DNA of 64,000 bases from Polytrichum commune (taxonomy: Eukaryota > Streptophyta > Polytrichopsida > Polytrichales > Polytrichaceae), in contig OX485805.1 of assembly GCA_950295325.1 (NCBI GenBank), forward strand, positions 31,173,501 through 31,237,500. The letters run 5' to 3'. The notes below the pieces were generated by a model. The model was given only the letters and a program-made list of their open reading frames with translations. It was not told the origin of the DNA and did not search any database. Each line of letters starts with the position of its first letter. Positions within the stretch are counted from its first letter, which is position 1. Positions 27,183 through 59,806 of the stretch are shown here, in pieces. The position numbers were made by a program, and so were the translations under genes.

Positions 27183-27994
27183 CTATCTAGCCTCGGAGAC
27201 TGCCTCTATCTCTTTTGCCTTTTTTTCTTTTGCCTCTTTTGCTTTTGCCTCTTTTTCTTTTGCTGCAGCTTCTTTTGCTCGCATTGCTTGAACATTCCTG
27301 AAAATCTCCGCCCCGCGACTATAGCCATTTTTGGGTTGACCGCCCTCCATAACACATTTTGGATTCCGTCGGCCGCCCGAATTATACGACGAAGAATTCG
27401 AATTATACGATGAAGTGGACTGTCTTGCATTTCTGGTCATGGAGTAGAAACGCTCCAACTCGACAGACGCACTAGCCCGCATAGGTTTACGGGTGGAAGC
27501 AACCTGCAATGCGTGAATGCAAGAACACATATGTTAGTTTAGGGAGGAAGACCCAAACGTGTCACACGTTCATTTTTTAAGTGCAAAATGATTGTAAAGC
27601 GCGGTTAACCATGTTGGGAGGGGGGGGGGTTCACCTTGTCATGGGGGGGGGGGGGGTTCGCGTCCGAGTTGGCGAGGAGGGGCAAGGCGTCCCGCAAAGG
27701 GATAGGAAGGGTGCCGCTCTTCGTAGGCCGAGCGTCCATCCGCAGCCGCCGTTGAGGTGTAATACTGCCGCCAGGCGGAGAGGGGGACGCCCGAACGGAT
27801 TTGCGATCTATGCCCTTGAGCGGCGACGGGGACGGAGATCGCCGGAAGATTTGCTTCGGTGGGGGGCTATCGACGACGCCGGCGTCAAGAGGCTCCTTGG
27901 AGTAGTCAATGGTTGACGCGGCGTCGTAAACGGTCTCGTAGAAGAAGCTCCCCAAGTCTGACTCGCTGACGATGTCAATCGAGGGCTCCAAACG
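27183..27994 (-). CDS. unknown gene, two 3' exons
   Basis: Two minus-strand blocks fit in phase: 27,994-27,635 (acceptor GCGCCAG, donor GACAAG|GTGAAC) and 27,503-27,183 (acceptor ATTGCAG, stop TAG). They encode 120 and 106 residues. The first is acidic then Ser/Pro-rich (SPSPSPLKG). The second has a Ser/Asn-rich linker (SYNSNSSSYNSGG) and ends in an Ala/Lys/Glu helix of KEAKAKEAKEKKAKE type. No family is recognised. The first block starts with an acceptor and no ATG, so an upstream exon is needed. The nearest coding block upstream is the FCP1 exon, whose stop lies only 166 bases away. These exons may be an alternative 3' end of that gene or a separate gene. Confidence 0.4.
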
Positions 27995-28098
27995 CTGGCG
28001 CAAAAAAGGAAACGAAACAAAACCCAAAGGAAGAGGGTTTGCTAGAGCGCGTGAAAATCAAGATTTATATGAAGCATATATTACACAAAATGAACGGG

Positions 28099-28104
<6 letters not shown>

Positions 28105-28130
<26 letters not shown>

Positions 28131-28150
28131 TACATACACATACAAACACA
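28105..28150. repeat. CA dinucleotide microsatellite
   Basis: A run of CA repeats, ending in CATA variants, lies between the FCP1 exon stop and the next block on the minus strand. Confidence 0.85.
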
Positions 28151-28159
28151 CGTAGTGTC

Positions 28160-28972
28160 TCAAATGAGCTTGTTAAATTTCGCGTGAGATAACAACTCTC
28201 TGTACAAATGGTCTCGTGGATCCAAGTATCTCTCGCCTATGGGATTATTCCTAACAAAATTGTTTATGGGCAGTCTGCTCCCCCAGAGCGTCTGGAGGTA
28301 TTTACCAAGGTCTAACAAAAATCGGTCCCGGACCTTCTCGACCGTCCACGTAGGGCAAACTATGAAGTTGGCCGTCGGGTTCAACATGTTCTTTGCGGCG
28401 CTGTCGTCCACCATGAGCGTGTTCTCGCGGGTGGGGCGGACGTCGTAGGGGACACCTATCAAAGACGGTCGCTGGTCCCAAAAAATGGGCTTCAAGACCT
28501 TGAGATATTGGGGGGAAGCGGGGTTGTTTGGTTTTTTGACGACTTTGCCGTCCTGTGTGTACAATATTCTACAGGCTTCCTGTGCTAGGACCATGCAGGG
28601 GGGCTCGATGCCCTTGAAGATGAACTCCACGACGGCATTGGTGTTCTCGGCCTTCATGGAGCTCCACACGACCACCCACCATTGTTGTTGGGCGATCTCT
28701 AGGAAGGTCCGAAGCCACAGGCGGAGGTGAACTAGCTTGCTCTTTATGAATGTGGGCGGCCCGTCGTAATTTGCGTCCTCGGGCTTGCAAAAGGGCACCG
28801 TGGGGGTCCTAGGGCAATGAACGCATTGGACGAGGACCCCGTTCAGGTCTAACACCAGGAATCGTTTCTTCGGCCGCGGGGGTGGGGCGGGTAAAATCGG
28901 GGGGGCCGCCGTGCTGCCCTCTCCGCTCCTTGGAGAAGAGCGTCTGGGGGCCGCTACGCTATGCTCCGAGCC
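28160..28972 (-). CDS. exon 4 of split gene: FCP1/NIF-type HAD domain
   Basis: The exon begins after acceptor ATCCGCAG and encodes 270 residues to TGA. After a Pro-rich linker, KKRFLVLDLNGVLVQ is the first HAD motif. WWVVVWSSM matches the second motif, and LMVDDSAAKNMLNP the late Asp-Asp motif of the FCP1/SCP phosphatase family, which removes phosphate from Ser in RNA polymerase II tails and other proteins. The catalytic DxDx(T/V) motif reads DLNGV here. The first Asp is kept, but the second, the general acid, is Asn, so ordinary phosphatase activity is doubtful. It joins exon 3 in phase 0. Confidence 0.7.
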   Translation of the reverse strand, partial: GSEHSVAAPRRSSPRSGEGSTAAPPILPAPPPRPKKRFLVLDLNGVLVQCVHCPRTPTVPFCKPEDANYDGPPTFIKSKLVHLRLWLRTFLEIAQQQWWVVVWSSMKAENTNAVVEFIFKGIEPPCMVLAQEACRILYTQDGKVVKKPNNPASPQYLKVLKPIFWDQRPSLIGVPYDVRPTRENTLMVDDSAAKNMLNPTANFIVCPTWTVEKVRDRFLLDLGKYLQTLWGSRLPINNFVRNNPIGERYLDPRDHLYRELLSHAKFNKLI

Positions 28973-29485
28973 CTGCGGATATGATCGAGAGAAAACGGTG
29001 GGCAACTTATGTCATGCTATGTCCAAAGGAAGCATTAAAGAAACGAGCGTTCTCGGTGCAAAAACAAAACCATTTCATTCATTTTGGAGGGGGTGCAACA
29101 AGAGACACAAGAGAGGCAAGAGCATACAACATACATTCAAACACAGGATACAAGTATATAGGAGTTAAAAATGGCGATTATATTGTATACAATGCTCTAT
29201 GTACATCTTGATTGGGGGGAGCCGCGTTGAACGATGCGTTCAAACTAGCCTACTTCTACATCTAGCAAAAATTGAAGAGACAGGCCGCCGTGATGAAGAC
29301 TTCGTCGCAAGTCGAGGGTATGTGGACGAACGAATGGTCGGGGGGATGTGGCGAAAGGCGCGAGTGCGGGGGGGGGTGATGTGTGCGTGAGTTTAGGGTA
29401 GCTAGGGGACACGACCAAGGCAAGAAGTCAAAGACCCAGGGAGTTTGGGTCGACCGACCCAAACTGAGTGGGGTCAGTGCATTAC
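28973..29485. other. intron 3 of split gene
   Basis: The minus-strand donor GAG|GTAATG lies at 29,485 and the acceptor CCGCAG at 28,973. One copy of the palindrome family sits at 29,444-29,463, within 30 bases of the donor. Plus-strand frames here are short and unconvincing. Confidence 0.5.
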
Positions 29486-30426
29486 CTCGCCTTGGTCGTG
29501 CCTCGACGACGTTGATGCCGGCATCGCGTGCGCTGCCCCACCTCTATCACCGCCGCCTCCGACGACGACGTCAGCCACAACCTGCTCCTGCAAAGGCTGA
29601 CTGTCAGGCCTTTGTCCCAACCCAACCTCCGCATGCGCATCATGCATTGGTTCATCGACTGGGTTAGGAGTAGAGGTATCACCAGGCCCTTGCGGGCCTT
29701 CAACATCTAACATGGGCTCGTCCACCGGGGTCTGGTCGGGGACGGGGTTTGGGTCGGCCGACCCAAACCCTGCTGCTTGGCGAGCGTCGCTCTGGGACGC
29801 TGCAACGTCGGCACTGTTTGGGTCGGACGACCCAAACATGTGGGGGTCGTCCCGCTGGTGGTGTGGGGGCAAGAGGATGGGAGGCCGAAGCGGCGGGGGT
29901 GCCAACGAGCTGGAAGATCCGGGGACGCGCCAAAGGTTGGGGTCGTCCACCTGCTGGACGGGCGCGTAAGGGCGGGCGTGAGGCTGCAGCAAATGCCCGA
30001 AGCTGAAGGACTGCTGCGGCATGGGCCGCGGGCCGATATCCTGTGGATGGAAGCCTGCGGGCAAGTGAGGGAATGAACTCGGGGGAGCCATCACCAATCC
30101 CTGCGCCAGCATGCCCTGGATCACTTGCGTGATCAGGTCCGCTTGGGACGGAGGTGGGGCAATCGCCCTTTGCCGCTCCTGCTCCAACAGGAGAGCCCTC
30201 AACTCCGCGACTTCGTTGCGGACCAAGGGCTCCTCGGCGGCGGCCTTTTGCAATCGGACGCGCTGCTCCTCGTCCTGGAGCATCTTCGCGTTGGCCTCCT
30301 CCACGGTGAGGACCTTGGGTTTCACCCTCACATTCCCAGCGAACCCTCCGGGGGAGGCAGGATTCGACCTGAGCCTCTTCGTGAGCTCCATGTCGTCCTC
30401 GTCTTCGGAGCTTATGGCGATCGTCT
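29486..30426 (-). CDS. exon 3 of split gene, 3' part
   Basis: This is the 3' part of exon 3 beyond the CACTA insertion. It starts in frame with TIAISSEDEDDMELTKRL and has a short Glu/Gln-rich helical segment (EEANAKMLQDEEQRVRLQ). The rest is a Pro/Gln-rich low-complexity region ending at donor GAG|GTAATG. Two palindrome copies lie inside the coding sequence (29,748-29,767 and 29,817-29,836) and are read as FGSADPN and FGSSDPN. The last three bases are the TCT target copy. It has no known domain and probably acts as a flexible linker to the FCP1 domain. Confidence 0.6.
29748..29836. repeat. two palindromes inside coding exon 3
   Basis: TTTGGGTCGGCCGACCCAAA at 29,748 and TTTGGGTCGGACGACCCAAA at 29,817 belong to the family that forms the 58.27 kb array. 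Both keep the frame open and encode FGS-DPN in a disordered region. Confidence 0.85.
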
Positions 30427-30459
30427 CACTATAAGAAACCCGCGTTTTTTGTTACGTCC
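30427..30459 (+). repeat. CACTA left terminal inverted repeat
   Basis: It begins CACTATAAGAAACCCG, then GTTTTTTGTTACGTCC after one variable base. Transposase binds such termini in this superfamily. Confidence 0.95.
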
Positions 30460-31901
30460 TTGCTCATGTCCTGGGAGACATTGTGACATCCGGGTTTACA
30501 TCCTTCGGACGTACTAACGCGTGTAACACGTTGTAACGCGCGGGGACATCACAAAAAACGTTTGGACATCCGTGTAACACAGACGATTTTTGGAGATTTT
30601 GGGGGGATGAGAACTGTGCCCACTGGGCACCACGTCGAGGACACCTAAGCAGTAGAATGGCGGGCAGTGCCACATGGCCGCCAATGTCATCCTATCCAAT
30701 GGTGACGTGGAATATGACGTGGCGTCTGACATGGACCCAGGAAAGAGTGACGTGGCAGCCACGTCAGCATTCATTTGAGTGGTTTTTTTCCCACATTGAC
30801 GTTCGCGAGTACGTCACCAGAAACATCGTTGTGCTTTCAAAGACGTCCCAAGATGACGTGGAGATGTCACGCTTGTTGTCTACGATAACGCGGCCTTGGT
30901 TTTGATGCTCATTTCGTTGAACATCGCCATGTCCCTGAGGACATGGCGATGGACATGAGGATGTCCTTGATTGCGTTGCCCATCCGTGGTCGTGGGCATT
31001 GTGGGTGTCATGACAGACGTCACAGAGAACATTTGCGTGTCTGTAGTGACATCTTAGCGTGCATGTTATTGCTGACGATGTGTATGTGATGGTGTTTTGG
31101 CGGATGCGATACATGCTTTGGGAGATAGGAATAATGTTTATGTGGACGTCAATGTCACCGCGCGGATGTCCGGCCGGAGACGTTCTAAACTTAAGCAGGG
31201 CGTCCATGAAAACATCTCGCGGGATTTTAGGGATGTTATGCAAAACACTGCCATTACTCGACAATCAGTCCTTCAAAACATGTTCACGTCACGTCTTACA
31301 TGTTATAAAAACATTTGCAAAGACATGCAGTTGTTGTGTAAAACATTTCAACGTAATTTGGCAATTATTATGGAAGACATGCTCATGTTCACAGAGTCAT
31401 CGACGAAAACATGAACACCTCACGTCCAACGCGGGGAACGAATATAATCATCATCACACAGTTGATCCGGGATACATCCCCGTGTCACGAATTGGTAGCT
31501 CTAGAAGACGTCATCATAATCACGTAGACGCCGCATAAAATATCCCCACATCATGTTAAACATGCGCCATGAACATCATCCTCATCGCAGACTCGTTCAA
31601 TAGAACACCCCCCTATTAGTTAGAAAATGTCATAAGAAACATCATATTAATGATGCAGTCCTCCGGGATAACATTCCCACGCCGTGCAGGACGAATTATA
31701 CAAGACATCCGCCGACATACCTAAAGTCTTTGTGGCATACTGACGTCAACATTCAGACGTCCTCTGCGACGTCCCCACATACTCTTGAGACATCCCTACG
31801 TCATGCCCTACATGTCCAACAACACATCTCTACTCTAATGCATTGTTCTCACGAAGCACCAAAATAACCCGTTCCAGAGTTTTTGTTGCAGGCCCTTTCG
31901 T
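30460..31901. promoter_or_regulatory. CACTA left subterminal region
   Basis: This stretch is packed with GACATCC, GACGTC and ATGTCC words in both orientations, the kind of short subterminal repeat bound by the TNPA-type protein in En/Spm elements. It includes a 30-base hairpin at 30,922-30,951. The same words are dense at the right end (49,660-49,880). No gene is supported here. Confidence 0.6.
30922..30951. repeat. perfect hairpin in CACTA subterminal region
   Basis: Arms CATCGCCATGTCC and GGACATGGCGATG flank a CTGA loop. The core TGTCCCTGAGGACA recurs elsewhere in the element, for example 42,809-42,826. Confidence 0.85.
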
Positions 31902-34900
31902 TCATTTCTTCTTTGCCGCCTCTGCTCTTGTTGAGGTGCCTACCTGCACTTGCAAAATGAAGGCATGTTATGGATGATGTCTTTGCACAAGATATCATCA
32001 TTTAGGAATAATGTAGTTTTCCCCATTTTCACGACACCAAAGGGTTCAGGGTTCAACCTACCCAAACACAAAGATCCAAAATGAAATGTTATGACAAACA
32101 AGTCTGCACATGGAGCGGGTTCAGAGTTTTCTAACCTTCTCAGGTGGTTTCCCCTGTTTGGACACTCCTGCTGGCTTTGTTGCTTTCGATGCAGCTGTTG
32201 GCTTTTGTGTGTCGCTCTTCCCCGGTTTAGAAAGTCCTGCAGGCTTAAATGTCCTTGATAGAGACTTCAGCATGTTACCTTGTTGCATTCTCAGCGTTGC
32301 ACCTCCCTCTCCCCCAGGTGTTTCCATGTCCTCCTACACCGCCAATTCATCATTACATGAAGACACTTGTCCCAACATGCACAGTAAACATTCACATTGT
32401 GGTATGTAGAGAAGAGAAGTTACAGGCCCATGTACACTCATCCAACCTAAATGCTAATTGGCCTACTTGCAAACGTGGTAGTATGCGATACACACAATTA
32501 AATATATGAATCCATGCGCTTCATAGTCATTACACGAATGAATGAAAAAACAAAATACTCAAAATTCGGCGTCGCAAAACTGTCTTGACAACAACTCAAC
32601 ATTCTCCTCTTCGTGAACATGTCCATAGATGTCTTCATGGACGTCACAGAAGACGTCACTGCGTTTCCTAGTTGATTTGCAGACGTCTTTCTGAACATGG
32701 TGACGTCTACATGACCATCACAACACGACCTACATCAGTTTACCTTCTGGGCGAGCTCTCCAGGCGCGGGGGTATCCACAATGGCGTAGGCGTCGTCCTC
32801 TACAGCCTTGTCCACCACCTCCGGTGGTGCTGTTGCACTGGCATCTACCTCTCCGTCCATTGTGCCCCCTCCTTCGGCCTCCACCATCAAGGTCCCTCCC
32901 CCGACATCCTCCGCAGCGGCCATTTCCACCTGCTCTTGCCCATGCGGATGCGACACCCCCGACGCAGCAAGAGTTGGCGAAGGTGGCCTCGCAGTCTCTA
33001 TGATGGCCGTGGGCGCTGGGGTCACCTGCAAAGCCACAAGATGAACTGTATCCTGAAGACTAGTGGATTGCGTGACAGTAGAGTCCGTGTGAGATGCCTT
33101 TCCCGCTAGGATCTCCCGGAACATGGCCTCCATGCGGGAGGTGGACTCATCTATCTTGGTCTCTAGGCGCTTGTTGGAAGCGTCTATCTTGGCCTCTAGT
33201 CGCTCATTTGTTGCATCCATCTGGCCCTGCAGCTCAACCAACCGGATCTCCAAGTCCTGTACGTCCTCGTCCGGATCACCTCGCGCGCTTTCCCTCTCCT
33301 CCTGCAGTCGTTCCTCAATCTCTTCGACTATCTCAGATTCCCAAGGCTCCCGGGAATGACGCAGAGTCTGCCAGCGACAAACATGCAACGATTTCATAGT
33401 CAATATTCTCGAATGCGTTTACGGAGGTATACGAGGACGTCCTGAAAGACGTAACGAGCAACGACGATGCGACGTGAGGATGTTTTCACAGACATCCTCT
33501 GACGTCTCTAACAATTCAGAAGGCAGTTCCATGGACCCTTTGGCATGCACACAGAGTCGTATATTCTCTGCCAAACAATACGCAGTGGATCGGTCGGGAA
33601 TGCCAGATTTCCTCCTACACAATAAAACAACTACTTCAGGACGATCTACACAGACTTAGAGTCCTCTATTACAAAGTGCAGGCCAATACCAGTTTCACCA
33701 CCGCAGCCTCTCGAAGTGATGCCATTTGAGTTTTGGAGTTGGAACCTTTTCCCTTTGCCACTTTCCGCATCTTCTCCGTCGTCAGTTTGGATTCCTCAGT
33801 TGCCCTCTTCCGCACAAGCCTGTTCCATTGATCATCAGAAACTTCTGGTGGCTTGCGCTCCTTCTGGTCGATCATACGGTTCAACCGGAATCGCCTGTTG
33901 ATCAGTATCTTGTTCACTCTTACTTGGATGTACTCCGGTTCCATAGACTTCCGCGCCCCCTTCACCACCCAGCCTACAAACGCATGGACAACATTCCCAA
34001 AAGGGCGAGGTTACTCCGCTGGGAGAAGTATGCAACGTCACGTTCACAGTAGAGCACCGCCAGCAAGTTTTTGCGGGGCTTCCAGAAGTGTTCTCTGGGA
34101 CATCTATCGACGTCATCTTGGACGTCGGCGTATGTCACCCTCAACGTGCAAACGTACAGTTCCACAGCCTTGTGTCGACATGGACATCGTCCGGTTCACA
34201 AAGAATACAACATCCTATCCAATGTAAGTTGATGAAGGCTACTTCACAGGAAAGCCACGCATTGAATTGTACAGGAATGTCACATAATGTTACTGAAGGT
34301 AGAGAGGATGTTCGACACAGCATGAGTCAAAGGAGTTTAAATGTGAAAAGGTGGGAGGGTTTCTGGAGTGATAGTCATGTCGTACCTTGCCATAGGCGTT
34401 TGAAGAATCGATCCTTTGTCGCCTCCGCTTGCTCCACAAAGTTCCCATTGGGATCCAAGTCCCTCGCCAGAGATCGAAGATCCGCGTGGAAGGCTCCCAC
34501 CAATGCCCCGTAAGGCTCTCCTTTCTCGTCCACAGTGATGGGTTTTTTTTCGACTGCATGCTCGCGCTGCATCGACACCCGCCGGACGTTGCGGGGAGGA
34601 GGTGTATTCTCCTCGGACATTTCGTCGTCTTCGGTGTCCTCGTCCTCGGCATCCTCTTCCTCCTCTTCGTCGTGTTCATTCTCGAATCCCCGGCTACACA
34701 ACAGACAGCCGATCCTTCATTACACATGAAAAACTCCAAACATAGGCAGCCCTGGCATCACCTACATTGTGGATGATGTCTGCACATCCCGGAGAACATG
34801 AGCGTGTCCTGCCAAACGTCTAAGATCACCGTAGTGACGTCTAAAAGAAGCAGTGTCCAACATGGTGACATCCCCGACAGCGTCTAACCAGCACCATGAC

Positions 34901-37900
34901 GTCCACATGGACATCTCCATGTTCTCCACCGCGATACAGGAGATGTGTGAGTCTACAACACGGGGCGACCAACTTCCAAAGACACATGTTACACTACGGA
35001 TATATGTAGAAGACACTCACTGTATCTCCCGTTCCTGCTCCGGCTCCTTCATCCGCAAAGTGGCCTTATCTTTTGCACGGATGAGGGGTCGCACTTCGTG
35101 GCGGATGCCATTTCCTCTCGGCGCCGCGCGGATGTCGTGCCTGTTCTTCGTCCGCCGCTCCACAACCGCCTCTACATCATCAGCGTCGTCCCCATCGCTT
35201 GCCTCGGTCTCCCACCTCGATGGTGGAGACCGAGGTCGCTTCTTCGATTTGGCGTGAGCGTTTGGCATTCTCACGCGTCTGCGCGGCCACCCAACAAAGG
35301 CCTCCCCCTGCTTCGGCTAAGGCCAGGAGCAGTACACACAGAATTTAGAGGGATAGCTAGATACACATACTCAATACACAACAATCTATATAAGTCTCGC
35401 GAAACATAAAGTAGAATGAATAGAACCGAATCAGTGCGGCGGTAGCCCAAATGCTGTCATTGAAATGAATTGAATATCATTGGGGACCAATTGCTCGGGA
35501 AAGCATCCAAGGTAATTGATGTATAGCATGTGTAGAAGAATGGCCGCCTGACACAAATGAATTTCGAAATTTGGAAAGTCAAAAGCCAAAGGTGAGATGA
35601 ATTGAGAAAGCTTTCTTGTTTGTGCTGCATCAAAAAAATTCAAATGCCTTTTGCCCTCTGAGCTAATTTGTCCATCGGTCAGGGGATATGTGTTTCGGGA
35701 CCGACTTATAAACCTCGCACACCGAGGCGGGTTTCTTATCAAACACCATTTTTACAGCGACAATGAACCTCTATACTCTAGTCACAGACTGGAAATAAAA
35801 AGTCACTAGCACTATATCTCGAAAGTTTCTACAGTCTTGTGGCACACAGAAATTAGAAAATTATCTCTTGAAATCTGCGAGGAGATGTTCCAAATTAAGT
35901 TTTCCGAAACAACATCAGAGCAAACCCAATCATAAACAACACGAAATGATAAACAACACTCATAGATTTGCCAAGTTTAAGCCTCACCTCATGTAGTTGT
36001 TCGCCTGCACAAGAATTCTTGAACCGGCACTCAACACATACTGAATTTACCAGGTGAGTCACACATAAATTTCTCCGAGCACCAGCACGGACTTCTTACA
36101 TATTGGATGCATTGACCTAAAAAACTACAGAGCTAGCATGGTGATTCATGACGAAAACCAAAGAATAACAGAAAGAAGGCGAGCATGATAATTCATGGAA
36201 CATGGTGACCATGCAGCTCATCCAGTTAAACTCACCTAGTAGAGAGTAATAGTACTGACTACCACTCGTAATCCCACTCCTCATGCAAGCTCAAAAGAGA
36301 ACTTCAAGTTGCCAGACTCTTTGTCGGTCCTTAAAGTGTAAGTCCTCTCCTTTTAAGAATAACCACCTTTCTGGAAACTCCAAAGCTTGCAAGACTCATG
36401 TGGAAAATGCAAAGTGTCGAATACGCAAGAGATGATGACGACGATTCAGACTGACAACATCCTCTGACATCTAACCTCACAACTACCAGAATTTCAAGAG
36501 CCACTCATAAATAGGGAGACCTAGATGCATAACATGGTGACGTCTTGTGAGCCCAAAATTGATGCCCACATTGATTGTTAACACTTGTAAAACATTACAA
36601 GTGGTGTTTTGGTGATTTATGATTATTCACAAAAATATAAAAAGAGTGAAGCTTGAAGAAAGCTTAGTTTGAAGCATTAGGCTTTTGTGGAGTGGATTTA
36701 AGTAGGAGAAGGACAAACCTTGGTAAAGTGTGGTAGGTAGAAAGCCAAGGTTAGTTAAATGTTTGAATTAGGATCATTGTTGATCATTTGAGGGAAGAAG
36801 GCTTAGGAGATAGGATAAGAGCCTACAAAGTAGGAGGAAATCTCGAGGGCTTATCGTGAGCCTTGAGGGTGCTCACCCCCTCAAACTCACTATATAATCC
36901 CTCATTCTTCCCTCACTCATCCTCTCTTTCTTTCGTGCTCCTTGGCACTCCACGTGTTATAAGTGTGGGTGCGTGGGAAGCAAGATATGAGCACGTGTGT
37001 GTGCATGGATGTAAGGTTAGGAGCCAAGGCTAGTTGGCCTTGAAAAGGGCTTGACCTCTTGTTAGTAATAGTTGGGCGTGAATGATTTAAAGTTCAATTT
37101 ATGGCTTTGTTTGAATACTTAGATTTACATTGATTAGCCTTATACTTATGCGGATGTGCAAAGTCTCTTATTGGAGCATTTAGTTTTGTTGGACTTCATA
37201 TGAATTTTTGAGAGCCAAAAAACCGAGACTATGTCCAAACTTCCAAAAACTAGTGAAAAAATGTAGGTTCAAAGAGAACATCGTAGAATTGCGACCATAT
37301 ACTTTGTGGCAGTAGAAATATTATTGCATATTCATGTAGAGGACTTCATTAGCTATCCATGGATACCAAGAACTCATTTTTTGGACTTCATATGAATTTT
37401 TGAGAGCCAAAAAACCGAGACTATGTCCAAACTTCCAAACTTCCAAACTTCGAGATTAAGGAGTGTAAGAAGACATAGTATAGACTTGGCTAAGTTGCGT
37501 ATATTCCAACGATAGATTGGAATCATACATTGTGTTACAAAGAGAGAAATCTCTACATGTCATTATAAACTTCTCCATTCGGGCTAGGACGAAATTGAAG
37601 GGTGGAGGCTTTTTGGTGACACGTCCCTGAGGACAGCCCTGCAACATTACAGAATACGTCGACACGTCAATCGAAACATATAAAGCTCCCACGCCCTAAA
37701 ACCGCCAGACGTCTCCGATAGCGTCCGGATCGCGACAGATGAAAGTAGCAAACTGGCAACGATCACGGCTAAGGCAGGAGGTTATAAGGGGTGAAATCAC
37801 AAAAGGGCCCACAGATGGAACACGTCTCCAAGCTGTGCACGGCATGCTACATGCGGCAAACCCTAACCGAACCCTTAAGCTGTCTTCGAGAAAAGGGGAC

Positions 37901-49201: not shown

Positions 49202-49206
49202 ATTCC

Positions 49207-49862: not shown

Positions 49863-49895
49863 GGACATAACCAAAAACACGGGTTTCTTATAGTG
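49863..49895 (-). repeat. CACTA right terminal inverted repeat
   Basis: Reverse-complemented it begins CACTATAAGAAACCCG and continues GTTTTTGGTTATGTCC after one variable base. It differs from the left end at three of 33 positions. TCT follows. Confidence 0.95.
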
Positions 49896-50412
49896 TCTCC
49901 TCCACCGCATAGTCCCCGTACAGCTTCTTGCCCTTCAGCATTCGCCGCTCCCTGAAGGTGGCCGTCGCATCCCTCGAATACATGTCCTTCGCGTCGGCCA
50001 CCATGAGGACGGGCACTAGCTTGCTTTGCGGCGTGGCAGCCCGCATGGCCTTCTTCCGCTGAGGGGCCTCGGATTCTTGAGTGAATCCTGTTGCCCCTTC
50101 CTTGACCTCCCCCTCCACTTTCTCTGCTTCCTCCCCCTCCTCCGCAACCTCACCACCTGCTCCCATAGACGGATTGTCCGGATGCAACCCGATGAGCGGC
50201 TCTGGCAATTGAACGGGGGCCCGCATGGCGAATTCACCCGGGTTGATTCGCCTCGCCATATCCAAAGGATTCTTGCCCCCCTCGACGATCTCTTCGACGT
50301 AGGATCTGGGTATCCAGTCGAGGATGTCCATTCTCTTGGCCAGCGCCTTCTGGGTCCTGTAGAATTGAACATCGGCATCCTCCACATAGGAGTAGATGTT
50401 CAACCCAGACAT
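49896..50412 (-). CDS. exon 3 of split gene, 5' part
   Basis: The frame from MSGLNIYSYVEDADVQFYRT runs to AVEE, where the CACTA element cuts the codon. With the downstream part it gives 485 codons, divisible by three. The content is a helical segment, then DILDWIPRSYVEEIV and a Glu-rich linker. The 5' splice edge is unsure: no clear AG precedes 50,412, and GTGGAG at about 50,391 is an alternative. In the present allele translation would stop at TAA three codons into the transposon (GAG ACA CTA TAA). Confidence 0.6.
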
Positions 50413-50494
50413 TTGCACAATCCAAATCAATAGTATTAGTATCACCAATGAAGAATAAGGAAAAATGACACCCAAAACAAAACAATAATAGTTA

Positions 50495-50620
50495 GTTTGG
50501 GTCGAGCGACCCAAGCAATGCATGCCCTAGTTTGGGTCGCTCGACCCAAACAATGCATGCCCTAGTTTGGGTCGCTCGACCCAAACAGACCGTGCCCCTA
50601 GTTTGGGTCGCCCGATCCAA
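50495..50620. repeat. four tandem palindromes in intron 2
   Basis: Palindrome units start at 50,495, 50,530, 50,565 and 50,601, a 35-36 bp period with the spacer CAATGCATGCCCTA in the first two. The cores vary (GAGC, GCTC, GCTC, GCCC), while the TTTGGGTCG and CGACCCAA arms stay nearly fixed. Confidence 0.85.
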
Positions 50621-50655
50621 ACTGTCCATATAGTTCCTTCAGGTTATTTGCTTAC

Positions 50656-51987
50656 CATGGCTGCGAAAACCGGTTTGGAGCCCCCGAAGACATTGAAGAT
50701 GCAGTCCCCTCTCTTCGTGAGGGTCCTCATCATCCGCAGGTAGAACTCCATGCGCAGTTCATCCGCGGGGTAGTTGGCGTACTTCGCATCGTCGTACAAG
50801 CTTCTGCTGGAGCCCAACCCTTCTTGAACTTGGAAGAGCTTCTCCATCCTGGCTATGGGATGGTTTGGCACCTTAAGTAGCTCAGCTTTGTACACGAAGT
50901 ACAAGCACAGCACGTTGACGATCCTCGTCTTCTTGTCTTTCAGCGTGTTGTACGCCCCCTCCGCCGGTGCAGCAACGTAGTGAGATTTTGAGACGGCGTA
51001 CTCTGGCTGCAATTTCCGCACGATCTCGTACACCTGCTCTGCCCTCCTGTCCTCGACAATCCACAGCCAGACGTCGACATCCCTGAATTTGGGGCTACCG
51101 TAATCCACAAACTTCGTGAAGAACGGCTCGTAGAACGGGGTGCTCATTGTCCCCTCAAATGAGGCTCCAGGGATGTTCCTGAAGTCTATCATTCCGAAGG
51201 GGAAGCGGTCCCCGGCTTTTGTCCTGATAGCCTTTCTGGCATCAGAGCCCAGCCAACCTTGGATCTTGAGAGGCTCGAGGGTGACCAAGTTGAAGTAGGC
51301 GTCGCCCTCGAAGCTGACGATCTTCTTCTCCTTTATAAAGTTGGAGAAGGCACGCGTGGAGTGTTCGGGAAGCACCCGGTTCCTCCCCCCCTTCACAAGC
51401 TTGGACTTCAGGAAGTCGTCTCCCGCCTCCCTGATGAGTGCCGCCATGGACGCACTGGTGAACTTGTAGGCGGCTTTGAATGCCCTCCAGTGCGCCTCGT
51501 CGACCTCTCCATCCACTATGAGCTTCCTTTCCGGCACCAGCTTGTGCAGCTCCTGGACGATGGTCGTCTTTTTTTTCCTATTCTCCGTCCATTCCTTCAT
51601 GGTGTAGCATGAAGGGACGAAGATTTTGGGCTTGATGAAGACGATTTTCGGGTGGATCCAGCATCTCTTCGCAGTCGGCTGCACGTGGAAGATGTGGGAC
51701 GCCGCCTTTCCCATCTCTGTCTCCGAGAGACCTTGAAGAGCTCTGAAGAACTCCCTCACCAGAGGCTTCATTTGCTTGAAGCGCGCAGTCTGGTTGAAGA
51801 GCAAGCCGGTGTCAGGATCCATGAGGTCCCCCGTCTTGTGTTTCTCGAAAACACTCTTCCATCTCCCCCACACGGAGTCAGACGTTGTGATCAAATCAAT
51901 TTCTCCTCTTAGCTCATTGTACTTCTTCTGCTTGTGGGAAGTATTGTCAATCGAGGAGAATTTGTTGATCATCTGGTATTTGAAGTC
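50656..51987 (-). CDS. exon 2 of split gene
   Basis: The exon runs from acceptor AATGTGCAG to donor CCATG|GTAAGC, 444 codons, and joins exon 1 in phase 0. The protein is mixed alpha/beta with many aromatic residues (WGRWKSVFEKHK, EAHWRAFKAAYKF, VDVWLWIVEDRRAEQVYEIVRK). I do not recognise a domain. Long plus-strand frames opposite it are antisense shadows. The frame is fully open, which with clean splice sites argues the gene was functional until recently. Confidence 0.65.
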
Positions 51988-52034
51988 CTGCACATTAAGT
52001 AAATAACACACGTTAGAAAACTGCGAATGCAAGC

Positions 52035-52111
52035 TTTGGATCGATTGACCCAAACTATAAACAAGACGAGAAAAAGTAAACAATGCAAGAGTTTGGGTCG
52101 ATCGACCCAAA
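52035..52111. repeat. palindromes in intron 1 of split gene
   Basis: One degenerate copy lies at 52,035-52,054 and one perfect copy (core ATCGAT) at 52,092-52,111. The second is only nine bases from the exon 1 donor. Confidence 0.8.
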
Positions 52112-52120
52112 CATATTCAC

Positions 52121-53446
52121 CTCCCATTTTGGGTTCTTGTCTTTAGCATTCTCCCTTTCCTTGGGAGGCCTGCCGTAAAACTCCCACACCTCCCTCGAGG
52201 CCATGATGTTCCGAATCCAGGATGCCTGGTACGCCCTCTTCTTGTTCTCCATGTTGAAGAAGCGTGAGATGTCGGTTACTACGGTCTCGTTGTCAAACCA
52301 AACCACCAATGCCTTCCACACCTTTATCTTCTCCTTTTGGTTATTGGGGTCGTCCCACTCGGTCATTAGCTGAATTTTTTTAGAGGCCTCCACACTGTGC
52401 TGGCCGTCAATCAGCCAGAAGTCGTCTTTGCATATTGCCGGCCACATTTCAGGCGTCGGCATTCTCTTCAGCCCTTGGGGCATGACAACAATTGTCTGCC
52501 TGTCGTCTTTGAATTGCCCTCCCAAGATCTGAGCGACCATCCAGTCGACGTAGGCGTCCTCCTTGGCTCGGACACACTTCTTAGGTGGCGCAAGGTGGCA
52601 CTGTGCAATGTTCACCTCGAACTTGAAGTCCTTGCCCATGAAGAAGCAATGCAGGCACTTCGTCTCGAAGTTATCATTGATTTTCTGTATCTCGCCTGCA
52701 TCCACCTCTTGGCCAGGTTTCGGCATCCGCAGCTCCGGGGAAACTGGCTCGGTGGTCATGACGGAGGACTCTCTCGCCCTCTTCGACGGGGTCGTCTGCC
52801 GGCTTCCGGACGGTGTGGGCGTCTCGCTGTCAGCCGGCGTTCCTGTAGTGCTAGTCCGTCTGGAGTCTGCAGGGACCGGATGCGGCTTCCTCACAGTTTG
52901 GGGTCTGGACGACCCTGCGCCTTCTTCTGCCATTGCCTTACGCCTCACAGGTTGCTGCGTTTTGGCTTTACTTTGCAGCGCCTTGTTGAGGACTGTGATA
53001 GCCTGTTTCAATTTTGTAAACCTACTTGCAACCTTCGTGTTGGTTACATTGCCATCTATGAAAATTGTCTCCGGTTTAATCGTTTCAGGCTCCACGCATG
53101 ACTCCTTGGCGTATATGGTGTCGAATGACTCGGAGAACTGGTGCATGAACATGTGGGCGTTTTGCACGGCGGAGTTCTCGAGAATTACGTCCACGTAATT
53201 CCCGAGGGCTTGGACGGACGCAACCTCCCATCCTGTCAACGTTGTCCAAGTGTGGTTCTCGTGGGTCCCTACTTTTACCACGAACAGGAGCTTGAACTGG
53301 GAGCCCTTTACAACCTGAACTGACCACGCAAGGACGAGCCCATCCTTGGGCACGTATGAGTCGTCCTGGGGAGTTTCATACTCTTGCCATATTACGTCTG
53401 GCGCGAGCATAAAGAACCTTTCTCCAGGTCTCTTCTTGGGGGCCAT
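52121..53446 (-). CDS. exon 1 of split gene: ParB/Srx-like motif
   Basis: The ATG at 53,446 follows an acceptor-like CTTACAG, so a non-coding or coding exon probably lies upstream. The exon has 442 codons and ends at donor GGGAG|GTGAAT. After a Lys/Pro/Thr-rich linker near residues 165-245, the segment TIVVMPQG, then DDFWLIDGQHSVEASKKIQ (Asp 347 to Ser 351), then SRFFNMENKKR resembles the ParB/sulfiredoxin fold, where a DG-HR motif binds nucleotide and an EN-R helix follows. Here His 350 is kept and Arg is replaced by Ser. The function is unknown; nucleotide binding is an inference. A Cys pair, CLHC, precedes it. Confidence 0.55.
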
Positions 53447-54160
53447 CTGTAAGTCCAAAAATTGAAACCATTAGTTTCGGTCGATCGACCCAAAGTAGTC
53501 GACAATGCATTTAACATTTGGTGGAAATGGAACAAATGTATTTTATTGACCATCCCGAATTCAAGGTTTGGGTCGATCGACCGAAACCTTGAACACTTGG
53601 TGGCTCGTGCTCCTTGTGTGCTGAAATAGACCTATGATGGTTCCTCATTAGAGAGTTTGTGTGTATTTAGTATAATATATGTGTATGTACATGATTTCAT
53701 CAATTTCAATTATGGGCATCTGAAGGATTTTTTGATACTTTTCTTGTTCAGACGTCGTGTTTGGGTCGGGCGACCCAAACATGAGGCTTTGTTTTGGGTT
53801 TAGGTTCCCAATCATGAGGCCATGTTTGGGTCGAACAACCCAAACATGAGGCTTTGTTTTGTGTTTAGGTTCACAGACATGTGGCTTTCTTTAGGGGTCA
53901 GGGTCCCAAAATGAGGACATGTTTAGGTCGGACGACCCAAACAAGATCATGTGTTTGGGTCGATCGACCCAAACCAGAGGTTGTGTTTGGGTCGTCTCCC
54001 CAAATAATATTATTTTATTATATTTTTTAAACTTGGCATGAAGCATATACAATGCTTATGCGTTGTGTATGCTACAAACCATGAATTAACCATCTCACAT
54101 TGTGGATATAAGAAAACACAATACCTTTCAAAGATGTGTTGCAGACACTTTGGAGTAGAT
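53447..54160. repeat. upstream region of split gene with palindrome cluster
   Basis: Palindrome copies lie at 53,475, 53,567, 53,761, 53,824, 53,922 and 53,954, with a half copy at 53,986. The 53,761-53,900 part is a loose 62-63 bp tandem containing CATGAGGC. This is the 5' flank or first intron of the minus-strand gene. No other feature is seen. Confidence 0.75.
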
Positions 54161-54560
54161 CTGGTTCTGTGGCTTCCAAACAATTGTAAATTCTCTCAAA
54201 CAACTCTTGAATCTCTCAACTAACTCCTGAATCTCTGAACTAACTCCTGAATCTCTGAACCAACTCCTGAACCTCTGAACCAACTCCTGAATCTCACACA
54301 CAACTACTATACCTCTTAAACGAATTCGAAATCTCTCAAGCACTCCTTAAACAACACAAACTCCTAAAACCTCAAAGATATAACCACTCCTGAATCTCAC
54401 AAAAAACTGCTGAATCTATCAAACAAACCTAAAACAACACAAACTCACAAAACCTGCACCTCACAAACACTCCCGAATCTCACAAGAACTCCTGGACACT
54501 CTTCCAACACTTTCCAACACTCTTCCAACAACTCTTCCTACTCTTTCCTTCACCCTCACG
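54161..54560. repeat. CTCCTGAATCTCTGAAC tandem region
   Basis: A 20-bp unit (AACTCCTGAATCTCTGAACT) repeats about five times at 54,200-54,300. Looser copies continue to about 54,540. Translations of it are repetitive and probably meaningless. Confidence 0.7.
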
Positions 54561-55174
54561 CCCTAAAACCTTCCTCCGTGTGTTTTTGGTTTTTTCTAAA
54601 CTCTTCCTAACTTCCAAGGTTGCACAAGTGCTATTCTATTGTTATCGCAAGAGAAAGGAGAGAAATAGAAGAAGGAAAAACAAGCAAGATGCGGGAGAAA
54701 ACGATGTAAAAGCTACACCCAGCCTGAATCGCCACGCCGCTTCGCGAAAGCGGCGCTTCCAAGCGAGGCGGCGCTTCCAAGTGAGGCGCGGAGCGTATGC
54801 TTGGCGCGGAGAGTAAGAGAGAAAGAATGAAATTTTGTGACGGTTGGGGTTTTGTTTGCCTCGGGAATTGGCCCCCAACCGCGCGAATAGGGTGCCCACA
54901 GGATTAGGGCACCCACGGGAATAGGGATATAGGGAACCCTAAATTCGAAAGCCCGACTCTAAACCCTTAGCGGGCCTACCTCTTTAAAAAGGCATAGGCT
55001 ATTTCCCTCATGGCATAGGTTGCATACTACAATATCAAATTTTTGTAAGTTGAAAACCTTTTGAGCCTTTAAGTTACCCGCCAATTGCCTTCAAAACTAA
55101 TTTTTAGTAGGTTAAAATCCTTCATATCTTTTAATGTTGTAGGTTTTAAATTCAAAATTTGAGTACTAAGTCGT
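54561..55174. other. no gene; short GC-rich hairpin region
   Basis: Around 54,735-54,790 there is a hairpin (GCCGCTT with AAGCGGC) and an 18-bp tandem pair (GGCGCTTCCAAG). The rest is AT-rich. Nothing gene-like is supported. Confidence 0.4.
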
Positions 55175-55231
55175 ATCCTTGGCAGGAATTGAACCTGGCT
55201 AAGCCTTTCACCACATTTGAAGGCCAAGGAT
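55175..55231 (-). ncRNA. tRNA-like element, copy 2
   Basis: The unit is 57 bases with a perfect 9-bp terminal stem (ATCCTTGGC with GCCAAGGAT). On the minus strand it has CAGGTTCAATTCCTG, a T-arm and B-box-like sequence. Compared with the copy at 4,551 the seventh stem pair has changed from A-T to G-C on both sides, preserving pairing. The middle hairpin differs in sequence and length but still pairs (CCTT with AAGG). There is no D arm. Confidence 0.4.
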
Positions 55232-56567
55232 TAACCATCTGTTTTTTAAAGCGTTGATTATAAGTTATGAAAGGTTGCTAAAATTCAAATGAGTTCAAGG
55301 GTGAAAGTCCTCACCATCTTCTGATTCAACCTCTACTCTTCCTAAGATATAGCCTAAAGATATGTACTTAGGCCAACTAATTTTCTAATTTGAAGAAGGA
55401 TGAATGGCCAAAATCCTCTCTTTTAAACAAATTGTATTTAAAATTTCCTACATTTTTTTATCACATAGGTTGATATCCTATGTTCTTAAATTGTGCATAG
55501 GCTCTTTGTCCTACACTTTCAAAATTTTATAGGCTAAGTCACTTATTTTTTAGGCCGCATTTGTATTAATCACTTTATTCGTTAATTTGTGATGGTTTAG
55601 GTAGGACGACCCAAACATTAGACTATGTTGTTCTGGTCTTACAATAAATATGGTTCTAAGCCCTTGAAATAATTGGATGACTTTATGGTTATATTCTCAA
55701 ACCTAAGTTTGATCCAAGACTTCATGTATAACTCTACTATGATGTATAAAATGGCCCCCACCCCCACCTCGCACCCCACCAAAGCTTTTGTACAAGTTTC
55801 TCAAGATTTCAATCCCTTGTGCTTGTGATCATTTCCTAATCCACTAGACTATTTTCTCTAATTAGTGTGGGTTACCATTCGGAGCTACACATTTCTGTAA
55901 CATTTAATAGAAAGTATTTTTTTCATCCAAATAACTTAAGTAGGTAGTATGCACACGAAAGATTATGATCTGACTTAGTTGGTAAAAAATGATAATGTCA
56001 GTAAAAATTTATAGCAAGACATAATTATGAAGTGCACAAGTGCACCTCTCGTTCATCCAACATACAGCCTTTAAATAGTATGTAACTTGATCTCTGGAGT
56101 ACACTAAGGTGCTACATAAAATGTGTTATTCTACAAAACTAACCATTTATATAGCCAATGCATTCTTACAACAAAACTTTATGCTAAACTAATACTTAAC
56201 CCCTACATACATGACACCATACCCTAAATTTTCCAAACACATTGAAGGCATTGGTTTCTCTTTTGTTTGACCATGTTAGGAAAACCATACAATTGCGTGA
56301 TATTTAACAATGTAATCATTGACATCTAGACTTTACCAATGATGCCAACAACTCACACGATATTGAATGAATAAAAAAAGGGTCCCACACCCCCCAACAT
56401 GTGGAACAATTTAGAATACGTGAGTGTGGAGCCTATTAAATGAATACCTTCCCCAACTGCATTTTGTAAGGGTTTTGAAATGCATGATCCTTATTTGAAA
56501 ATACTAACATGCGCAAGTTTTAAGTACATGATTCCGTGAGATCGTGACTTTGATGAATCGCAGAGTC
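55232..56567. other. no gene recognised
   Basis: The stretch is AT-rich with one degenerate palindrome at 55,596-55,615. Short words of the 7.7-16.3 kb repeat family (CTCTCGTTCATCCAACATA near 56,046) appear around 55,990-56,110. No coding frame is supported. Confidence 0.4.
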
Positions 56568-57370
56568 GCCAATAAACCATGGTTCACGATATATTTAATA
56601 TATAGATTATGATATAAGAGTAAATCAGAGAAGCACAACATGAAATGAAGCCATTCAAGCAATCATGTTGTTATTCATTGTTCCCTCCATGTATATTAGA
56701 TGATGGCGCAAGATAAAATAGATGTTGTTTGTATATGGGGGCATCAGTGAACCACAACTACATTTGGTGTTTAGGGTTTAGGGTTTAGGGTTTAGGAGAT
56801 AGGGTTATAACATATTAATCTATCCAATGTCAATGTATAACATTGTCTTACTCGTGAGAAGAGTCTTATAGGAAGGTTATAGTGAAGACGATCTTGATTA
56901 TGTTAATTTGTTATTTGAGACGTTTAAACGCGATATATTGATTGGTCTTGTGTTTATTCAAATAACATGAAATATTGTGGATGTTAATAGGGGCTAGGGG
57001 TCCAACTTTGGATGTTTCGCTCACTTTAGGGAATCACATATTAGTCGCTAATAAACCATCGTTCATGATGTATTTAATATATGGAATGTGATGTAAAAGT
57101 AAATCGGAGAAGCACAACATCATGTTGTTATTCATTGTTCTCTCCACGTGTATTAGATAATGGAGGAAGATATAACAGATATTGTTTGCATAATATGAAG
57201 AAGAGTCTAATCGGAAGGTCATAGTAAATACAATCTTGATCATGTTAATATGTTATATGGGACGTTTAAACATGATATCCTAATTGGTTTTGTATTTAGT
57301 CAATACGCATTTCATGTTGTGGATGTTATAAGGGTTTAGGGTCCAATTTTGGATGTTTTGCTCTCACACA
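56568..57370. repeat. duplicated block with telomere-type insert
   Basis: Positions 56,568-56,990 and 57,047-57,370 align in the same orientation: AATAAACCAT-GTTCA, then AGAAGCACAACAT, CATGTTGTTATTCATTGTTC and AGAAGAGTCT. The first unit has about 120 extra bases containing four TTTAGGG-type repeats. Confidence 0.6.
56769..56796 (+). repeat. interstitial telomere-type repeats
   Basis: Three to four copies of GTTTAGG occur inside the duplicated block. A shorter run lies at 57,518-57,538. Confidence 0.85.
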
Positions 57371-58268
57371 TTAGTAAACTTGAAGTGAACTTGAGGATAG
57401 ATTCAAGTAACATTAAAAGATTGAACTAAAAAGGGACATTGGTAGTTAGTATCCCCTTAACAACGTCCACATACGTTCGTCATTGCCACTCTTGTATGCG
57501 AGATAATAGAGCAAGGTTCTAGGGTTTAGGGTTTAGGGGAGACAAATAAATAATTGTATTCATCATGACAATGGCCTCAAGCCTTGGAAACTCTCTCATA
57601 ATTGCAGCCTCCAAATGGCCCAAACCCCACCTAAATAGGTTTACACTTGAAAGCATTGAATGGAGTTGTGTTTGGGTCTACATATTGGTTAAAATATACC
57701 GTCATGATACTTGAAAAAATTAATGTGGCCGCCACCCTTCCTCCCAATGGCGTATGTCATATCCACACAAAAAAAAAAAATTAAAAAAAAAAAAAAAAAC
57801 ATAGACTAAGTCATATGACGGCTGGGGTATCAGAGGGGCATTTTTCTACTATAAACAGAAAACGGGGAATTCTGTCAGGAGGTTTGAAATAACCTCTGCA
57901 AGAGAAGAAGGCGGGGAATGCATCCAATGACTAAGTCTGGGAAGCGGAGGTGGATAGTATAAAGGAGCGCACCCCCCAAAAGTCGGTCATTTTTTTCTCT
58001 TCTCTCGTTGTCGAATTCGTAGAGAGAACTCTTAGTAGGAGCTGTACTTCAAGGTTTGTGCATGCTGCCGTTCACGAGCACTTATCCACAGCATGCAAGT
58101 TCATGAGCACCTATCCACAGCATGCAAGCCCACTGTGAACTTTGCAATGAGCTGAAATTCAACACGCCACGCAATATCCGCCGCATCATACGCCGGATTT
58201 TGTGGTGTACTTGGGCGAACCTTCACCTTTCCACTAGTGTTGGCGGGTTTTGAGTCTGACCCTATGAG
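57371..58268. other. non-coding; A-tract, TATA-like site, 29-bp duplication
   Basis: A poly-A tract lies at 57,770-57,800. A TATA-like ATAGTATAAAGGAGCG at about 57,954 is followed by a CT-rich leader-like stretch and could be a promoter for the gene at 60,006. Two 29-bp copies containing ATCCACAGCATGCAAG lie at 58,071-58,099 and 58,100-58,128. Confidence 0.35.
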
Positions 58269-59806
58269 GTTTGGGTCGACCGACCCAACTCTGTCCACTA
58301 GTGTGTTAGGGTTTATGTCTGACCCTTAACAGGTTTGGGTCGATCGACCCAAACCCCAACCCCAGTGTGTTAGGGTTTTTGTCTGACCCTTAACAGGTTT
58401 TGGTCGGTCGACCCAAACCCCAACCCCAGTGTGTTAGGGTTTCTGTCTGACCCTTATCAGGTTTGGGTCGACCGATCCAAACCTGTCCACTAGTGTGTTA
58501 GGGTTTATGTCTGACCCTTATCAGGTTTGGGTCGGTCGACCCAAACCCCTACCCCAGTGTGTTAGGGTTTTTTTCTGACCCTTACCAGGTTTGGGTCGAC
58601 CGACCCAAACCCCTACCTCGTGTGGGTGGATGTACCCTTGTGAGGTTTGGGTCGGTCGACCCAAACCCCTACCCCAGTGTGTTAGGGTTTTTTTTTACCT
58701 TTATCAGGTTTGGGTCGACCGACCCAAACCCCTACCTCGTGATGGTGGATGTACCCTTGTGAGGTTTGGGTCGGTCGACCCAAACCCCTACCCCAGTGTG
58801 TTAGGGTTTTTTTTTACCCTTATCAGGTTTGGGTCGACCGACCCAAACCCCTACCTGGTGATGGTGGATGTACCCTTGTGAGGTTTGGGTCGGCCGACCC
58901 AAACCCCTATCCCAGTGTGTTAGGGTTTTTTCCTGACCCTTAGCAGGTTTGGGTCGACCGACCCAAACCCCTACCTGGTGTGGGTGGATGTACCCTTATG
59001 AGGTTTGGGTCGGTCGACCCAAACCCCTACCCCAGTGTGTTAGGGTTTTTTCCTAACCCTTAGCAGGTTTTGGTCGACCGACCCAAACCCCTACCTGGTG
59101 TGGGTGAATGTACCCTTATGAGGTTTGGGTCGGTCGACCCAAACCCCTACCCCAGTGTGTTAGGGTTTTTTTCTGACCCTTTTGAGGTTTGGGTCGACCG
59201 ACCCAAACCCCTACCTGGTGTGGGTGGATGTACCCTTGTGAGGTTTGGGTCGGTCGACCCAAACCCCTATCCCAGTGTATTAGGGTTTTTTCCTGACCCT
59301 TAGCAGGTTTGGGTCGACCGACCCAAACCCCTACCTGGTGTGGGTGGATGTATCCTTATGAGGTTTGGGTTGGTCGACCCAAACCCCTACCCCAGTGTGT
59401 TAGGGTTTTTTTCTGACCCTTATGAGGTTTGGGTCGGTCGACCCAAACTCCTACCCCAGTGTGTTAGGGTTTTTTTCGGACCCTTATCAGGTTTGGGTCG
59501 ACCGACCCAAACCCCTACCTGGTGTGGGTGGATGTACCCTTGTGAGGTTTGGGTCGGTCGACCCAAACCCCAACCCCAGTGTGTTAGGGTTTTTTGTTAC
59601 CTTTATGAGGTTTGGGTCGACCGACCCAAACCCCTACCTGGTGTGGGTGGATGTGACCTTGTGAGGTTTGGGTCGATCGACCCAAACCCCTACCCAAATG
59701 TTTTAGGGGTTCAGTGTGACCCTTGTGTGGTTTGGGTCGGTTGACCCAAACCCCTATCCCAGAGTGTTAGGGTTTCAGTATGAGGTTTGGGCCGGTCGAC
59801 CCAAAA
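58269..59806. repeat. 26-copy palindrome array
   Basis: I count 26 copies of TTTGGGTCGNNCGACCCAAA-type palindromes. The first six are spaced exactly 64 bases (starts 58,269 to 58,589). From there they form a 119-bp dimer with spacings of about 56 and 63. In the dimer the cores alternate GACC and GGTC, which are reverse complements. Spacers alternate between a TACCTGGTGTGGGTGGATGT type and a CAGTGTGTTAGGGTTTT type. Open frames through the array are products of the repeat. Confidence 0.95.

Follow-up and report, generated by a model that had tools for sequence, protein, structure and literature searches.

The closest described counterparts of the repeated motif reported here were the targets of VANC proteins in VANDAL transposons. 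Passages of PMC5735166 describe the VANC21 motif as tandem repeats in the introns and upstream regions of VANDAL21 and, together with passages of PMC10398659, present VANDAL target motifs as short, almost confined to one family, and placed as fast-changing tandem repeats in intronic, upstream or terminal non-coding sequence; the same passages report that VANC6, a relative of VANC21, acts on an unrelated element, AT9TSD1, sharing its target. A second comparison was offered by the TNPA/TNP1-type repeats of CACTA elements (En/Spm, Tam1, Tgmt*), and for soybean Tgmt* part of PMC2613891 states that the subterminal repeats can form stem-loops. Sola elements produce 4-bp target duplications, sometimes exceed 15 kb and are known from a moss, as given in a section of PMC10741241, and Sola2 has also been described (in a portion of PMC3627910). 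Here we analyzed a palindrome in a 64,000-nucleotide stretch of the moss Polytrichum commune (assembly GCA_950295325.1, contig OX485805.1, positions 31,173,501 to 31,237,500; the whole stretch is called the window), where it was carried by a large outer DNA transposon, W, whose full-length relatives A, B and C form with it a DUF7869-type family (family 1).

The palindrome resembled the VANC/VANDAL motifs in lying in non-coding regions of transposons and in being tandemly repeated, the exceptions being two coding copies and its presence in a second transposon family. VANDAL elements are Mutator-like with duplications of 7-12 bp (part of PMC10741241), whereas family 1 had a 4-bp duplication in six of the six copies examined (read by eye) and carried a DUF7869 gene. 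Since both the superfamily and the motif differed, we did not claim membership in the VANC/VANDAL system. With the CACTA repeats (PMC2613891, in part) it shared the character of an element-specific repeated motif that is presumed to be bound by an element protein, but those repeats are found no farther than about 0.2-0.7 kb from the ends, whereas here the strict copies were internal and the degenerate ones subterminal. Family 1 resembled Sola in its 4-bp duplication and terminal inverted repeats, and its presumed transposase was labelled DUF7869.

The palindrome belonged to a transposon, clustered in its predicted introns, kept its core and a fixed geometry, and was shared with an unrelated Mutator-like family. 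We considered it somewhat probable, from these sequence features, that a dimeric regulatory protein would dock at it in the service of the element's own genes and not in the recognition of the element's ends.

The palindrome and its transposon

The motif, TTTGGGTCG-NN-CGACCCAAA, had been noticed in a reading of the sequence alone. A pattern search of the window with TTTGGGTCGNNCGACCCAAA returned 43 matches with at most three mismatches; 42 of them had at most two and 27 were perfect, and 100 shuffles gave a mean of 0.03 and a maximum of 1. This bore out the motif, the intervals in which the sequence-only reading had placed it, and its absence from the nested CACTA element, since none of the 43 matches fell within 30,427-49,895. 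The 43rd match, at 27,122, had three mismatches. It had also been stated that the first 27 kb held no copy, which was correct at up to three mismatches, but degenerate relatives were present at 26,829 (four mismatches) and 26,927 (five); these two and the match at 27,122 were all within the outer element, whose left end was at 26,568. When the 8-bp halves were scanned across the window with spacers of 0-12, matches occurred at the NN length alone (28).

The palindromes had been described as marking a locus but missing from the transposon inside it. The marking and the unmarked inner transposon were both real, but the locus proved to be a transposon itself. A 35-nt inverted repeat (94%) paired 26,561-26,595 with 63,623-63,657, ATTT flanked AACACTATA...TATAGTGTT on either side, and the end sequence CACTATATTCGTTAAATTGAGAC occurred at these two places alone in the window with up to three mismatches allowed. 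Between the ends were a long minus-strand gene, extending from 53,446 towards 27.2 kb, and a DUF7869 gene, whose product is presumed to be the transposase and whose W copy was apparently decayed, with an in-frame stop and a frame break. The nested element, which had CACTA ends, a 3-bp duplication and Transposase_21, had inserted into exon 3 of the minus gene, and the site was uninterrupted in A, B and C. The target duplications were ATTT for W, AAGT for A, CCTT for B and ATAA for C, and ATGT and CACT for two short copies (3.6 and 4.8 kb) that kept both ends and had no exact palindrome. Duplications of 4 and not 3 bp indicated that family 1 was not CACTA. A CACTA identity of the outer element was also rejected because the outer open frames scanned showed DUF7869 and the NLI-interacting-factor-like (NIF) domain, and Transposase_21 belonged to the nested element.

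The window lay on contig 3 of the assembly (C3:31,173,501-31,237,500), and its TTTAGGG-type repeats suggest a plant. Throughout the 407.8-Mb assembly the exact palindrome occurred at 9,731 sites, and the element end sequence occurred 1,768 times with at most two mismatches; the control, reversed in the case of the palindrome, gave 0 for each. On contig 1 (C1), 93 listed ends formed 37 facing pairs less than 80 kb apart, 19 of them at 15-20 kb. Thus, the impression that the site was strikingly local did not survive the genome-wide count, but the scatter was uneven and the sites were clustered in transposons.

Intron borders were predicted from splice signals and open frames. Predicted introns totalling 3,639 of 17,614 bp held 39 of the 42 copies in W; two further copies were coding and one was intergenic. 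This count used six introns and left aside another two, presumed near 28.1 and 27.5 kb, and the borders of two introns were later found to be 1-13 bases off, with no copy affected. Palindromes with at most two mismatches numbered 42 in W, 40 in A, 26 in B and 36 in C, at corresponding places; in all four elements, none was closer than 2.7 kb to an end.

This placement bore on the possibility that the site is one to which the transposase itself binds, comparable to the subterminal TNPA repeats in CACTA elements. A degenerate, asymmetric relative was found near both ends in mirrored orientation, the left and right motifs having 19 of 21 bases in common, so that a role in end recognition was possible for that degenerate variant. 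However, the strict copies were far from the ends, the two short copies had kept ends and duplications but lacked the exact palindrome, and the motif was also present in a family with other ends. The evidence from the short copies was weakened because the deletion junction of one of them was single-copy (1 of 40 scored matches spanned it): such palindrome-free copies may have shrunk in place and need not have moved. Overall, we regarded a transposase site as distinctly unlikely.

Two observations concerned the DUF7869 gene. In copy A, protein identity to W was 59% for the first exon of the DUF7869 gene (84% in C) and 96% for the DUF7869 domain piece beyond it; the family-1 copies looked mosaic. 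In the large array of W, TTAGGGTTT was repeated at 58306-59767, with 15 of the window's 20 same-strand copies, and we take it to resemble the plant telo-box.

Conservation and geometry of the site

Core positions (18 per site) were compared at six corresponding sites: 2 of 108 had changed between W and C, 3 of 108 between W and B, 1 of 108 between A and C and 2 of 108 between A and B, whereas the flanks of the same sites had changed at 123, 115, 118 and 111 of 228 positions, respectively. For the close pair W-A the counts were 1/108 in the core and 33/228 in the flanks, and between W and C the centre had changed at 8 of 12 positions. The DUF7869 array of copy A had a 78-bp period and spacers that could not be aligned with the 64/56-bp array of W, with an identical motif. 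Exon 1 of the minus gene gave nonsynonymous (dN) and synonymous (dS) divergences of 0.049 and 0.71 for W-A and of 0.039 and 0.23 for B-C; for W-B, W-C and A-B, dN was about 0.10 and dS was incomputable (the W-C value was -1), which we read as saturation. Together with the site comparison, this suggested that the protein and the palindrome core were kept and that silent sites were not.

The geometry was strict. Genome-wide, the 9,731 sites with the NN spacer compared with 178 for spacers of 3-30 together, and 49 of 50 listed sites of the latter kind represented a single stem-loop whose spacer was 11 nt long. (This 29-nt stem-loop, TTTGGGTCGAGCAAAATGCTCGACCCAAA, occurred once per place, at C1:1020528, 4669380 and 4674843 (L025-L027) and others; it was probably part of another repeat, as its surroundings lacked the NN palindrome.) Only 526 of the 19,462 half-sites were flanked by a base other than G, and the motif can be written with half-sites as GTTTGGGTCG-NN-CGACCCAAAC. 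A pyrimidine-purine centre occurred at just 38 of the 9,731 sites, and TA and CG at none. Among 134 exact copies from seven stretches, 85 had a purine at the end of both halves and 49 at the end of one; none lacked it at both. Such a rule would arise if a dimer needed one complete half-site GTTTGGGTCGR or both. The conserved core, the free centre and spacers, the fixed geometry and this extended half-site supported the suggestion of the sequence-only reading that the palindrome may be a recognition site.

A structural intron element had been suggested as well, and an RNA hairpin acting in splicing or stability or as a small-RNA source would fit the 39 intronic copies. It would also fit the copy adjoining the exon-1 donor, which was indeed adjacent, at a spacing of eight bases (copy end 52,111, donor G 52,120) and not the nine first counted, and a slight surplus of complementary pairs in the flanks outside the big array (for offsets 2-8, 43 pairs with a shuffle p of 0.011; for offsets 1-6, p was 0.056). 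However, 15 of the 42 window copies carried 17 core changes, none of which was compensated: 6 left a G-T pair and 11 broke the pair. All four element copies retained the variant TTTCGG..CCCAAA, B and C also shared TTTGGGCC..CCCAAA, and two palindromes were located in coding sequence. Since mismatched variants persisted without compensation, the sequence and not the pairing seemed to be selected, and a hairpin function appeared very improbable.

A second, Mutator-like family

The first 100 listed exact sites spanned C1:0.44-2.16 Mb and were distributed over A (38), B (18), C (25) and three further stretches, D (2), E (12) and F (5), which constituted one family (family 2). Copy F was about 12.3 kb long and had 61-bp inverted ends (87%) with AGTTGGCATG on both sides, its exact ends being read by eye. 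It thus displayed the terminal inverted repeats and the target duplication of about 9 bp that are expected of a Mutator-like element (MULE), and a scan for MULE domains gave just a SWIM zinc-finger match below threshold (E 0.076). From the inverted ends, the AGTTGGCATG duplication and the SWIM match we called family 2 Mutator-like. Its palindrome arrays, at 32-bp spacing, occupied two predicted introns, one separating two open frames and the other in the 5' untranslated region (5'UTR). The stretch before the array of F, comprising a TATA-like box, the 5'UTR and the donor, matched its counterpart in the DUF7869 gene of copy A (25/27 and 80/115 bases, E 3e-6); the match was weak in B (E 0.07), and none in W or C was among the matches listed. 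We read the common stretch as a promoter/first-intron cassette that may have been exchanged.

On C1, 69 sites had a flank other than G. Facing end pairs, covering 1.1% of the contig, enclosed 34 of them, 8 were near a single inward end and 27 were neither. Ten of those 27 were fetched and belonged to family 1 (6) or family 2 (4), two more were copies D and F, and the remaining 15 were outside the sample. In total, 110 of the 110 places examined by sequence were within family 1 or family 2.

These data also addressed the idea of the sequence-only reading that the site may be a miniature mobile palindrome, and the related one of a neutral, satellite-like growth. The length of the tandem array did vary between copies. 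On the other hand, the core was conserved while spacers were replaced and flanks diverged, the copies occupied matching positions across elements, multiplication took place through tandem arrays, the centre followed a rule, and none of the 110 sampled places was outside the two families. A self-spreading palindrome was therefore rejected as barely credible.

Other repeats were seen in family 2. A second palindrome, CCCTGTGCGTTAACGCACAGGG, was present in 5 to 6 copies per stretch (L024:2336-2857, 3354; L020-L022), and stretch E had a third, GTGTCTCGGTACCGAGACAC, in 18 copies with GTGTCTCGNNNNCGAGACAC, at a period of about 138 bp in two opposite blocks. It may be common for transposons of this genome to carry palindrome arrays. 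The end of the second family-2 gene (L024:7273-7734, VVDLTCSTGASILATRACGRHLLAFEGD) had no Pfam match and presumably, judged by eye, resembles a DNA methyltransferase.

Proposed role of the palindrome

According to the docking-site model, two half-sites GTTTGGGTCGR facing each other would be contacted by a dimeric DNA-binding protein. The sites, most of which were in the first introns of one or the other element gene, would have been multiplied through tandem duplication, and the bound protein would mark the whole element so that host silencing is kept off or expression is raised, as by VANC on VANDAL. The strict geometry, the purine rule at the centre, the core kept while spacers were replaced, the uncompensated variants and the tandem growth in first introns all argued for regulatory docking. 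We infer that a protein binds the site and that a transposon encodes it, the long minus-strand gene being the first candidate. Within this model, anti-silencing instead of plain activation was a possible outcome that we would place a little short of probable.

Several points weighed against this model. The docking role was proposed from sequence features, and the intron borders were our own predictions from splice signals and open frames. The sites were picked as matches with at most two mismatches and the flanks were compared without gaps, which inflated the contrast between core and flanks, and the correspondence of one of the six compared sites (the first of intron 2) was uncertain. The VANC21 motif, YAGTATTAY, is not palindromic, in contrast to the 22-bp palindrome with a fixed 2-bp centre found here. 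A DNA-binding domain was not recognised in the element proteins with profile libraries or models. Finally, five family-1 protein pieces matched none of the fetched D, E and F stretches, and eight family-2 pieces matched none of W, A, B and C. As no protein relative was detected between the families, a reader of the site would either work in trans or come from the host.

The latter case, a host transcription factor, insulator or intron-mediated enhancer exploited by both families without any transposon protein, would account for the same motif in two families without a detected common protein, for arrays directly downstream of predicted transcription starts, and for an element without a recognised DNA-binding domain. 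However, sites near host genes would then be expected, yet all sampled places were in the two transposon families, and two 11-bp half-sites are long for a host factor. We considered a host reader unlikely.

An extension of the docking-site model, which seemed to us somewhat unlikely, was that the palindrome is a shared password, passed between the DUF7869 and Mutator-like families in the promoter/first-intron cassette, with the anti-silencing or activating protein of one family licensing both. This protein would read the site by requiring a terminal purine in one or both half-sites, and it would perhaps be ParB-like, loading at parS-like palindromes and then spreading. We judged by eye that two genes looked ParB/DGQHR-like, the minus gene (LIDGQHSVEASKK) and one of family 2 (IWDGNHRFFAWK), and the tests gave no support: no ParB N-terminal domain was matched in an element protein by Pfam up to E 10, hhalign against four ParB sequences gave P 0.015 and a probability of 3% (0.4% and 0.4% in other comparisons), and blastp of the minus gene against the family-2 gene gave E 6. 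The four PF02195 matches of the genome were confined to three small contigs.

Other searches were largely negative. Pfam, NCBIfam and PHROGs scans of the two large minus-gene exons gave nothing convincing, nor did sequence searches of the PDB, and AlphaFold models made without alignment had predicted local distance difference test (pLDDT) scores of 35.5 and 45.0, the latter for the DUF7869 piece. A viral collection gave 0 matches to the palindrome pattern and no confirmed protein relatives, the pattern occurred in a single stretch among the 257 billion bases of a prokaryote collection, and Rfam and tRNA scans gave 0 matches. In the literature searched, DUF7869 was not found as a word, and among the matches listed for the motif 9-mers alone hit.

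Table 1. Features of the outer transposon W, its nested element and its palindromes (window positions unless a contig is named; aa, amino acids)
Feature	Position	Strand	Details
Outer DNA transposon W	26568..63650		37.1 kb with nested CACTA, 17.6 kb without; inverted ends, relatives A, B, C
Full-length copies A, B, C	C1:610,757; C1:1,174,918; C1:2,112,817 onward		17.0-18.6 kb; align with W, without CACTA
Target-site duplication ATTT, left	26564..26567		
Target-site duplication ATTT, right	63651..63654		
Left terminal inverted repeat	26568..26595	+	AACACTATATTCGTTAAATTGAGACTTT, 28 bp
Right terminal inverted repeat	63623..63650	-	28 bp
Left subterminal repeats	26727..27141	+	Degenerate asymmetric motif TTTAGGTAGGGCA(A/C)TCCAAAC; 98-bp tandem repeat
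Right subterminal motif	63439..63458	-	Degenerate motif TTTGGGTAGAGCACTCCAAA, mirrored orientation
Minus gene, exon 1	52121..53446	-	442 aa, with DGQHS stretch; purifying selection
Minus gene, exon 2	50656..51987	-	444 aa
Minus gene, open frame	28160..28972	-	NLI-interacting-factor-like phosphatase domain, PF03031 E 1e-12; 3' splice end unsettled
DUF7869 gene, presumed transposase	60006..62859	+	PF25273 E 2.9e-35
Nested CACTA, without palindromes	30427..49895		Target duplication TCT; Transposase_21 E 1e-57, CACTA ends
Predicted 5'UTR intron, minus gene	53447..54124	-	Palindromes 53475, 53567, 53760, 53825, 53922, 53954
Intron 1, minus gene (predicted)	51988..52120	-	Palindromes 52035, 52092
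Intron 2, minus gene (predicted)	50380..50655	-	Palindromes 50496, 50531, 50566, 50602; 35-bp period; acceptor uncertain
Intron 3, minus gene (predicted)	28973..29485	-	Palindrome 29444
Two coding palindromes	29748..29836	-	29748, 29817; read as FGSxDPN; present in A, B, C too
Single intergenic palindrome	55596..55615		2 mismatches; between two genes
Predicted 5'UTR intron, DUF7869 gene	58054..60000	+	Donor, acceptor; TATA-like box upstream
Tandem array	58255..59806	+	26 palindromes, 120-bp higher-order unit (about 64+56); within DUF7869 5'UTR intron
Palindrome groups, at most 2 mismatches	29,444-29,836 (3); 50,496-50,621 (4); 52,035-52,111 (2)		
Palindrome groups, continued	53,475-53,973 (6); 55,596 (1); 58,270-59,805 (26)		

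Some features were observed outside these elements. Nested inverted repeats at 25286-26271 (196 nt, 91%; 120 nt, 78%), just beyond the left end of W, were probably a separate foldback element. Two related minus-strand open frames at 1781-3709 and 22670-24646 (642 and 658 aa), with no Pfam family over the cut-off, were probably a repeated gene or element. A hAT dimerisation domain was located at 17192-17902 (E 3.2e-6) and had a relative at L023:2546-3652. The small contigs C10, C12 and C23 (20-61 kb; L032-L035) carried ParB and recombinase-like frames of bacterial look and were probably contamination.

Detailed knowledge of how transposons recognise themselves and escape silencing comes from few systems. 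The palindrome offers a rare DNA-binding specificity that could be traced among the few proteins of its element. Moreover, a long, strict and frequent motif in two unrelated families makes element-specific passwords, and their theft, testable.

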